From the NCBI GenBank assembly GCA_016931415.1, contig JAFGEW010000111.1:1-55760 (forward strand): a DNA stretch of 55,760 nt. The letters run 5' to 3'. The notes below the pieces were generated by a model, which saw only the letters and a program-made list of their open reading frames with translations, was not told the DNA's origin and did not search any database. The stretch comes from Verrucomicrobiota bacterium (GTDB lineage: Bacteria > Auribacterota > JABMQX01 > JAFGEW01). A program made the translations under genes and the position numbers. Below, piece by piece: positions 14,456-17,094 of this stretch (position 1 is the first letter of the stretch; every line of letters begins with the position of its first letter).

Positions 14456-15421
14456 ATGGATAAGTACTTGCAGCAGTTGACGGTCGAGCGCGCTGAGCGG
14501 CGCATCGCGCTGCGCTCGCCGGCCAAGATCAACCTGTTCCTCGAGCCGCTCGCCAAGCGGCCCGACGGCTACCACGAGATCGTCACCGTGATGCAGGCAA
14601 TCGACCTGTGCGACGAGGTGGCGATTGAGTTGACGGACGACGGGATCGAACTCGAGTGCGACTATCCGGACGTCCCGAGCGGGCCGGAGAACCTTGCGTG
14701 GCGCGCTGCCGAGGCGTTTACCGCGGCCGCGCACGTCGAGCCGGGGGCGAGGATCCGGCTGACGAAACGCATTCCGCCGGGCGGCGGGCTGGGCGGCGGG
14801 AGCAGCAACGCGGCCGTCGTGCTCCTTGGCCTCAACGAGCTGACCGGGCGGCCGTTCTCGCCCACGAGACTCGCCGAGATCGCGGCCACGCTCGGCTCGG
14901 ACGTGCCGTTCTTCGTGTACGGCGGCACGGCCCTGTGCACGGGTCGTGGAGAACTGGTGGAACCCCTTGAGGCGGCGCCGGAGTTCTGGGTCGTACTTGT
15001 AACGCCTGCATTTTCCGTCGCCACAGCCGAGGCTTACAAAAGGTTCACTTTTGTATTGACACACCAACACTCGCCGGATAGAATACTAGCGTCTGTAAAG
15101 GAGTCTGATCTGCGATCGTTGCTGGGCAGCCTGCATAACGGGCTCGCTAAGGTTGTACTGTCTGCATGGCCATCATTGAGGGCGCTCTGGAAGGAGGTGG
15201 TTGACGCAGGCTTGCCACACCCTCAACTGTCGGGAAGCGGTTCGACTCTGTATGGAGTCTGCTGCACTGAGGCGGAGGCAGCCAGGGTTTCGGCGCGGTT
15301 GCGCGGGCGGCTGCCGAGCGAGGTTTCCGTTGCAGTGGCGAGGAACCGCCTTGCATCAGCCAAGGAGGACTACAATGCAGATCACCGAAGTCAGAATCAG
15401 TCTGAAGGAGGTGGGCAATAG
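14456..15421 (+). CDS. ispE: 4-diphosphocytidyl-2-C-methyl-D-erythritol kinase
   Basis: Phosphorylates CDP-ME in the non-mevalonate isoprenoid pathway. 321 residues; a GHMP kinase with the three usual motifs: SPAKINLFLEPLAKRPDGYHEI (residues 22-43), the ATP-binding glycine-rich PPGGGLGGGSSNAAVVLLGLN (about 108-128) and the C-terminal LSGSGSTLYGV (about 260-270). The 3' part contains an AT-richer patch that looks like a full promoter (15056-15084). The last 47 bases overlap spoVG. Upstream it follows the deaminase by 6 bases. Adjacency of ispE and spoVG matches gene order in Firmicutes. Confidence 0.95.
   Translation: MDKYLQQLTVERAERRIALRSPAKINLFLEPLAKRPDGYHEIVTVMQAIDLCDEVAIELTDDGIELECDYPDVPSGPENLAWRAAEAFTAAAHVEPGARIRLTKRIPPGGGLGGGSSNAAVVLLGLNELTGRPFSPTRLAEIAATLGSDVPFFVYGGTALCTGRGELVEPLEAAPEFWVVLVTPAFSVATAEAYKRFTFVLTHQHSPDRILASVKESDLRSLLGSLHNGLAKVVLSAWPSLRALWKEVVDAGLPHPQLSGSGSTLYGVCCTEAEAARVSARLRGRLPSEVSVAVARNRLASAKEDYNADHRSQNQSEGGGQ
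15056..15084 (+). promoter_or_regulatory. Strong sigma-70-like promoter inside ispE, upstream of spoVG
   Basis: TTGACA (15056-15061, 6/6), exactly 17 bases, TAGAAT (15079-15084, 5/6), set in a locally AT-rich stretch of an otherwise GC-rich gene. It points at spoVG, whose ATG is 290 bases further on, and would give spoVG transcription independent of the ispE operon. Confidence 0.6.
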
Positions 15422-15776
15422 GAAACTGAAGGCCTTTGCCACGGTCACCTTCGACGACGATTTTGTGGTGCGTGACATCAAGATTATCGAGGGAAGGCAA
15501 GGGCTCTTCGTGGCGATGCCGAGCGCGAGGGTGATGGAAAACTGCCCCACGTGCGGCCGCAAGAACCCGGTTCGCAGCTCGTATTGCAGCGAGTGCGGCG
15601 CGAAGCTCCCCGTCGCGCCGCAAGTAAGCGATCCAGAGGAGCGCCGCGAGGAACATCGCGACATCTGCCACCCGGTCCGACCGGAGTTCCGGCAGTACGT
15701 CGAGTCGCAGGTCATCAGTGCCTACATGCAGAAAGTGGGCACCGGCGCGGCCCATTTCGGGCGGAGTTCGATGTAG
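15375..15776 (+). CDS. spoVG: SpoVG family regulator with an inserted zinc ribbon
   Basis: SpoVG proteins are small site-specific DNA/RNA-binding regulators. 133 residues, against about 85-100 for the simple form. The core is plain: MQITEVRISLKEVGNRKLKAF...VVRDIKIIEGRQGLFVAMPS (1-50), then HRDICHPVRPEFRQYVESQVISAYMQ (94-119), matching FRDIAHPI...R. Between them residues 51-93 replace the short RKTPDGEF loop with a zinc ribbon, Cys57-Cys60 and Cys71-Cys74 (CX2C-X10-CX2C), plus an acidic linker. AAGGAGG at 15362-15368 is 6 bases before the ATG and fixes the start. The gene overlaps ispE by 47 bases. The insertion suggests a metal-stabilised or extra nucleic-acid-binding module. Confidence 0.9.
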   Translation: MQITEVRISLKEVGNRKLKAFATVTFDDDFVVRDIKIIEGRQGLFVAMPSARVMENCPTCGRKNPVRSSYCSECGAKLPVAPQVSDPEERREEHRDICHPVRPEFRQYVESQVISAYMQKVGTGAAHFGRSSM

Positions 15777-16149: not shown

Positions 16150-17094
16150 ATGCACAGGGAAATCAAGCTTTTCACGGGGACGTCGAATCGTGCGTTGGCC
16201 GAGCTGATCAGCCGGCGGATCAACGTGCCGTTGGGCGCAGTGGAGATTTCGCGTTTCGCCGACGGTGAGGTGTTCGTCCGCATCGCGGAGAACGTGCGCG
16301 GTTGGGACGTGTTTCTGGTTCAGTCCACGGTGCCGGACCCGAACGAGACCTTGATGGAGCTGCTCGTGATGATCGACGCGTTCCGGCGCGCGTCGGCCGA
16401 GCGGATCACGGCGGTGATCCCGTGTTACGGCTACGCGCGTCAGGATCGCAAGGACCAGCCGCGGGTGCCGATCACGGCGAAGCTGGTGGCGAACCTGATC
16501 GTGGCGGCGGGCGCGAACCGGGTGCTCACCGTGGACCTGCATGCGGGTCAGATCCAGGGTTTCTTCGACATCCCGCTCGACAACCTGTATGCGTTCCCGG
16601 TGTTCAGCGAGTACATTCGGGCCTTGGATCTCAAGGACCCGGTGATCGTATCGCCCGACGTGGGCGGCATCAAGCTCGCCGCGTCGTATTCGAACACGAT
16701 GAAGCTGCCGGTGGCCGCGGTGGACAAGCGCCGGCTGAGCGACACAGAGGTCGAAGCAACGGGTATTATCGGCAATGTGCGGGACCGCGACGTGATCCTG
16801 GTCGATGACCTGGTGACCACAGCCGGCTCGCTGACCGAGGCGGCTCGGATGGTCAAGGAATTTGGCGCGCGCCACGTGTATGCGTGTGTCACGCACGGCA
16901 TCCTGGTTGGGCCGGCGATGAGCCGGCTCGAGGCGTCGCCGATCGAGCGGCTGGTGATCACTGATACGGTGCGATCCAACGGGTGCGAGAAGCGGTCGGA
17001 GTTCCAGGTCGAGCGGCTGACCGTGTCGGACCTGCTGGGGCAGGCGATCATTCGCATCCACCGCAATGAGTCGGTGAGTTCGTTGTTCTATTAG
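16150..17094 (+). CDS. prs: Ribose-phosphate pyrophosphokinase (PRPP synthetase)
   Basis: Makes PRPP from ribose 5-phosphate and ATP for nucleotide, His, Trp and NAD synthesis. 314 residues, the class I length. Motifs: KLFTGTSNRALAELI at the N-terminus, ISRFADGEVFVRIAENVRG, the flexible-loop YARQDRKDQPRVPITAKLVAN (about 95-115), DLHAGQIQGFF (about 129-139), SPDVGGIKLAA and the PRPP loop VILVDDLVTTAGSLTEAA (about 215-232). The metal/phosphate sites look intact. A GGAG lies unusually close (2 bases) to the ATG, but the N-terminal homology fits this start. It is followed 14 bases later by the L25/Ctc gene, as in Bacillus. Confidence 0.96.
   Translation: MHREIKLFTGTSNRALAELISRRINVPLGAVEISRFADGEVFVRIAENVRGWDVFLVQSTVPDPNETLMELLVMIDAFRRASAERITAVIPCYGYARQDRKDQPRVPITAKLVANLIVAAGANRVLTVDLHAGQIQGFFDIPLDNLYAFPVFSEYIRALDLKDPVIVSPDVGGIKLAASYSNTMKLPVAAVDKRRLSDTEVEATGIIGNVRDRDVILVDDLVTTAGSLTEAARMVKEFGARHVYACVTHGILVGPAMSRLEASPIERLVITDTVRSNGCEKRSEFQVERLTVSDLLGQAIIRIHRNESVSSLFY

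Follow-up and report, generated by a model that had tools for sequence, protein, structure and literature searches.

SpoVG is a common regulator of bacteria that binds DNA and RNA. The one encoded in the window, by which we mean the whole stretch of 55,760 nucleotides that was analysed, carries in one loop of its core a four-cysteine insert with the pattern and the predicted fold of a zinc ribbon, shortly after the site on which DNA binding depends in S. aureus SpoVG. Our best explanation overall, to which we give a probability of roughly 0.6, is that the gene is an orthologous, vertically inherited spoVG with an ancient ribbon insertion, and that the ribbon is a structural zinc knuckle extending the nucleic-acid surface of the protein. 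Ribbon SpoVG is not peculiar to this genome: it occurs across several bacterial phyla as well as in phages. The gene, its parts and its neighbours are as follows.

14456 to 15421, + strand: ispE, conserved upstream neighbour (gene-order comparison)
15361 to 15367, + strand: Shine-Dalgarno sequence AAGGAGG of spoVG, within the 3' end of ispE (sequence)
15375 to 15776, + strand: spoVG with zinc-ribbon insert, 133 amino acids (open reading frame with ATG start, PF04026 match)
15375 to 15524, + strand: residues 1-50, the N-terminal part of the SpoVG core, with FVAMPS at its end (phmmer to 2i9x, 2i9z and 2ia9)
15525 to 15530, + strand: Ala51-Arg52, site of the S. aureus SpoVG DNA-binding doublet K50-R51 (sequence, phmmer alignment, PMC3688583)
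15543 to 15596, + strand: zinc-ribbon knuckle C57-x2-C60-x10-C71-x2-C74, residues 57-74 (sequence, Pfam, alignment, Foldseek)
15600 to 15659, + strand: variable low-confidence linker, residues 76-95 (alignment; pLDDT 62-69 across residues 81-100)
15660 to 15773, + strand: residues 96-133, with the D-I-x-H-P motif and the helix at the C-terminus, the region of the specificity helix (phmmer, alignment, AF2, PMC3688583)
16034 to 16104, + strand: tRNA gene between spoVG and prs (Rfam RF00005, 61.2 bits)
16150 to 17094, + strand: prs, conserved downstream neighbour (gene-order comparison)

In a profile search, the protein at 15375-15776 was the sole PF04026 match in the genome, scoring 96.6 bits (cutoff 29.6) over profile positions 1-81 of 82; with the NCBIfam SpoVG equivalog model NF009749 it reached 82.7 bits, below the cutoff of 108. 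The assembly contains no 16S gene. It shares the core, the MPS sequence, the D-I-x-H-P motif and the C-terminal helix with the SpoVG family (PF04026; B. subtilis 2ia9, S. epidermidis 2i9x/2i9z), but differs from the plain members in the four-cysteine insert and in having Ala at the first position of the doublet. The loop from MPS50 to D96 is 45 residues long, versus nine in B. subtilis and Staphylococcus SpoVG. A preliminary description had put the insert at about 40 residues; the large insertion is indeed present, but its net length is ~36 amino acids, placed after the MPS-[KR][KR] strand and before the D-I-x-H-P helix. The four cysteines can be read in the sequence just as that description gave them, at 57, 60, 71 and 74 in CX2C-X10-CX2C spacing. 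The first 47 bp of spoVG are shared with the end of ispE, which also holds the spoVG ribosome-binding site, suggesting translational coupling of the two genes.

By profile, the insert falls just short of the known short ribbon families, scoring 24.8 bits with Pfam Zn_Ribbon_1 (PF13240; cutoff 25) and 23.7 with DZR (PF12773; cutoff 27.3). With the RanBP2-type family (PF00641; cutoff 27) it scored 17.7. It shares CX2C-X10-CX2C and the C-P-x-C-G...FC-x-x-CG pattern with Zn_Ribbon_1 and DZR, but differs from them in lying just below the curated cutoffs and in being embedded in another domain. An AF2 model, built from an alignment of the window protein and 16 homologues from viral contigs, had a mean pLDDT of 84.8, with residues 51-80 at 88-90. 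Foldseek matched this model to SpoVG crystal structures from an E-value of 4.5e-6 (2i9z_B at a TM-score of 0.85 by target length), and matched its insert to RanBP2/NZF-type fingers at 0.8-1.2 Å over 26-27 residues with probabilities up to 0.98, although these matches, being to short domains, have E-values near 1-4. A phage homologue, modelled from a different but overlapping alignment, yielded the same two groups. Both models show a compact zinc-finger-like unit on a normal SpoVG core, and superposition on solved zinc fingers indicates that the four cysteines should come together.

The same four-cysteine arrangement recurs well beyond the window. Within the window's phylum, 14 of 44 genomes have a SpoVG above the cutoff, and every one of the 14 has the ribbon at the same place and with the same spacing; no close relative was found whose main SpoVG lacks either the cysteines or the insert, one genome having a weak (28-bit) plain paralogue (L024) in addition to its ribbon form. 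The other 30 genomes gave no SpoVG match at an E-value of 0.001, and many of these assemblies are near-complete; families f3, f9, f10 and f16 are among those without SpoVG, and the gene has been lost from, or is absent in, whole families. A wider sample gave SpoVG in 179 of 384 genomes and ribbon forms in 15 besides the 14 above; the non-ribbon sequences inspected were plain, and the remaining listed matches were classed by their plain-length spans. In the phylum of genome G178, which is very likely Planctomycetota, an assignment made partly from the published insert discussed below, 116 of 199 genomes have a SpoVG match, and all 113 with a strong match carry the ribbon. The DNA pattern FV.MP-x7-CxxC-x10-CxxC was found in 111 of these 199 genomes, and its reversed control in none; the two strong matches that escape the pattern still have four cysteines, one reading FLAMPS and the other having CX4C. 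The pattern also occurs in 97 of 145 sampled genomes of the phylum of G327, perhaps Omnitrophota, although this name is a guess. No family is common to the samples from these two phyla, and the window's phylum is distinct from both. Searches of PLSDB plasmids and INPHARED phages returned weak matches only, and those spanning the insert site were nearly all of plain-form length.

A SpoVG insert of 32-36 amino acids has been reported as a conserved signature exclusive to Planctomycetes (Gupta et al. 2012, PMC3444138), zinc not being mentioned in that paper; the statement in the preliminary description that Planctomycete-like proteins have similar insertions was therefore right and is in print. 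Protein, length and conservation of the region all agree with ours, and the window insert is almost certainly the published one, identity of position being judged from the length and from the second phylum. The two accounts differ in distribution: with the ribbon in the window's phylum, in at least one further phylum and in phages, the restriction to Planctomycetes fails.

The ribbon is most likely to have been inserted into an ancestral gene, because the ispE-spoVG order is common to ribbon and plain loci. Of the 49 bacterial ribbon loci, 47 have ispE directly upstream on the same strand; many plain spoVG genes also follow ispE, prs and rplY are often downstream, and the ispE-spoVG-prs neighbourhood of the window is shared by many plain forms. 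With ispE adjoining in 47 of the 49, acquisition of the entire gene by horizontal transfer was judged unlikely for bacteria. On a SpoVG tree of 98 columns the ribbon distribution needs five changes, but a single ribbon clade was not rejected in an AU test (p = 0.278); from the identical position and spacing, we favour one origin with later losses.

Among 57 distinct ribbon sequences, C57, C60, C71 and C74, their spacing, and G75 are invariant. One further homologue, outside this set, L168 (G510:C217), has CX4C in its first pair (CPHRGC), so that the knuckle tolerates two extra residues. The pattern is not a chance one, because it is invariant in 57 homologues and the reversed control DNA pattern gave no match. 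Cysteine conservation and the superposition of two models on solved zinc fingers together give good support to the zinc-ribbon reading of the preliminary description, and there can be very little doubt that the knuckle binds zinc. Zinc might simply clamp the loop or a dimer and create no new contacts, as would suit the extreme conservation of the cysteines while surface positions 61-62, 65 and 72-73 vary, and also a divergent second SpoVG copy, from the phylum of G178, that retains all four cysteines although it has lost D-I-x-H-P. We consider such a purely structural role unlikely, since K/R63 (93%), N64 (96%) and R67 (77%) are conserved too, though N64 may itself be structural; position 70 is F/Y in 96% of the sequences.

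The location of the ribbon argues for contact with nucleic acid. DNA binding by S. aureus SpoVG requires both K50 and R51, the pair right after MPS, and six positions in the next helix contribute to its specificity (PMC3688583); RNA binding is reported for the Listeria protein (PMC4959528). The first ribbon cysteine is five residues after the doublet site (four residues between), and the ribbon ends before the specificity helix; because it lies between the two, it is in a position to contact nucleic acid. The proximity of the first cysteine to the doublet likewise makes the functional suggestion of the preliminary description, altered target choice or metal or redox sensitivity, plausible. In outline, a short C4 zinc ribbon would have been inserted long ago into the loop that joins the MPS-[KR][KR] strand to the D-I-x-H-P helix, where it would bind one structural Zn2+, this step being strongly indicated. 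Its basic face (K/R63, N64, R67; net charge near +4) would extend the nucleic-acid-binding surface of SpoVG and adjoin the essential K/R doublet and the specificity helix, and the protein would act as a regulator or as a nucleoid- or RNA-binding protein, as its homologues in Firmicutes and Borrelia do. For nucleic-acid contact as the main role of the knuckle, we would offer only about even odds.

Several observations count against this explanation. The knuckle shares C-x2-C-x3-N-x6-C-x2-C spacing and backbone with RanBP2-type/NZF fingers (ZRANB2, Nup153, Trabid), but it differs from the single-stranded RNA-binding members in having neither the stacking Trp nor the second Arg. At positions that we take, by spacing, to be equivalent to the RNA contacts of ZRANB2, it has P/H/A/V at 65, R at 67 and S/A at 68. 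Membership of the RNA-binding group was thus rejected on its residues, and because those that read GGU are mostly absent, no RNA motif is claimed. The E-values of the zinc-finger matches also weigh against our explanation, as does a mean knuckle net charge in phages of only +1.1; the corresponding figure is +4.0 for the window's phylum and +3.4 for the other bacteria. In addition, the basic doublet is incomplete in the window protein (Ala51-Arg52). Among plain forms 37 of 41 have both residues basic, as do 32 of the 35 ribbon forms from other bacteria; in the window's phylum the count is 6 of 14 (6/14 versus 32/35, Fisher p = 7e-4, relatedness ignored). Because the first basic residue has been lost in 8 of the 14 (the window protein, L013-L016 and L019-L021), a loss rare elsewhere, SpoVG of this phylum may not bind DNA in the way of the classic family. 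The ribbon may have taken over part of the binding in these proteins, but this is speculation.

A role in protein-protein contact fits nearly as well. The ribbon could dock SpoVG to a partner, for example RNA polymerase, the ribosome, an RNase or other SpoVG subunits, and not touch nucleic acid at all; the closest Foldseek folds include ubiquitin-binding NZFs and Ran-binding fingers, and the less basic phage copies lie near head and packaging genes. Against this, the bacterial knuckle is basic and adjoins the known DNA-contact doublet, and we regard docking alone as possible but doubtful. The phage copies comprise eight distinct proteins from ten viral contigs, several of which also encode a terminase, a portal or a Gp23 capsid protein nearby and so come from true tailed phages. 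At L121:4407-9140, L122:3019-10456, L124:6392-10453 and L145:1958-5500, no more than a few kb separate ribbon spoVG from such genes (terminase, portal or Gp23 major capsid), a neighbourhood that suggests a late or packaging-related role. PHROGs returned a partial match only, to phrog_27338 (function unknown). On the tree, most phage forms lie close to those that are probably planctomycete; L105 and L146 have long branches of unsure placement. The terminase large subunit at L121:4407-6059 has an internal Hint-domain match (PF13403, residues 135-174), possibly an intein. On the 298,603 bp viral contig of L146 (IMGVR_UViG_3300037467_003067), the divergent ribbon SpoVG is beside two small paired-CX2C proteins, at 1771-2235 and 2247-2723.

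Two CX2C pairs can in principle be oxidised or lose their zinc, and the ribbon could therefore be imagined to sense zinc or redox state and to switch the activity of SpoVG accordingly. Such C4 knuckles, however, are normally stable structural sites, and the gene context (ispE, tRNA, prs, rplY, pth) contains no pointer to metal or redox control; we find this highly improbable. To return to a zinc knuckle that extends the nucleic-acid surface, a bolder version would make the ribbon a second nucleic-acid-recognition element, defining a distinct zinc-dependent class of SpoVG in several phyla that was captured by the hosts' tailed phages for late gene control or genome packaging. We put this forward tentatively, as something we rather doubt.

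As far as the literature was searched, what is new is the identification of the insert as a zinc ribbon, its occurrence in phages and in phyla other than Planctomycetes, and its location beside the DNA-contact doublet, although coverage was incomplete and an earlier mention is possible. A published phylum marker is also corrected, in that the SpoVG insert is not confined to Planctomycetes as its description has it (PMC3444138). Work on SpoVG has been confined almost entirely to Firmicutes and Borrelia. In other phyla a large fraction of the SpoVG proteins have an invariant predicted zinc ribbon at the nucleic-acid face, and conclusions on target choice may therefore not transfer to them.
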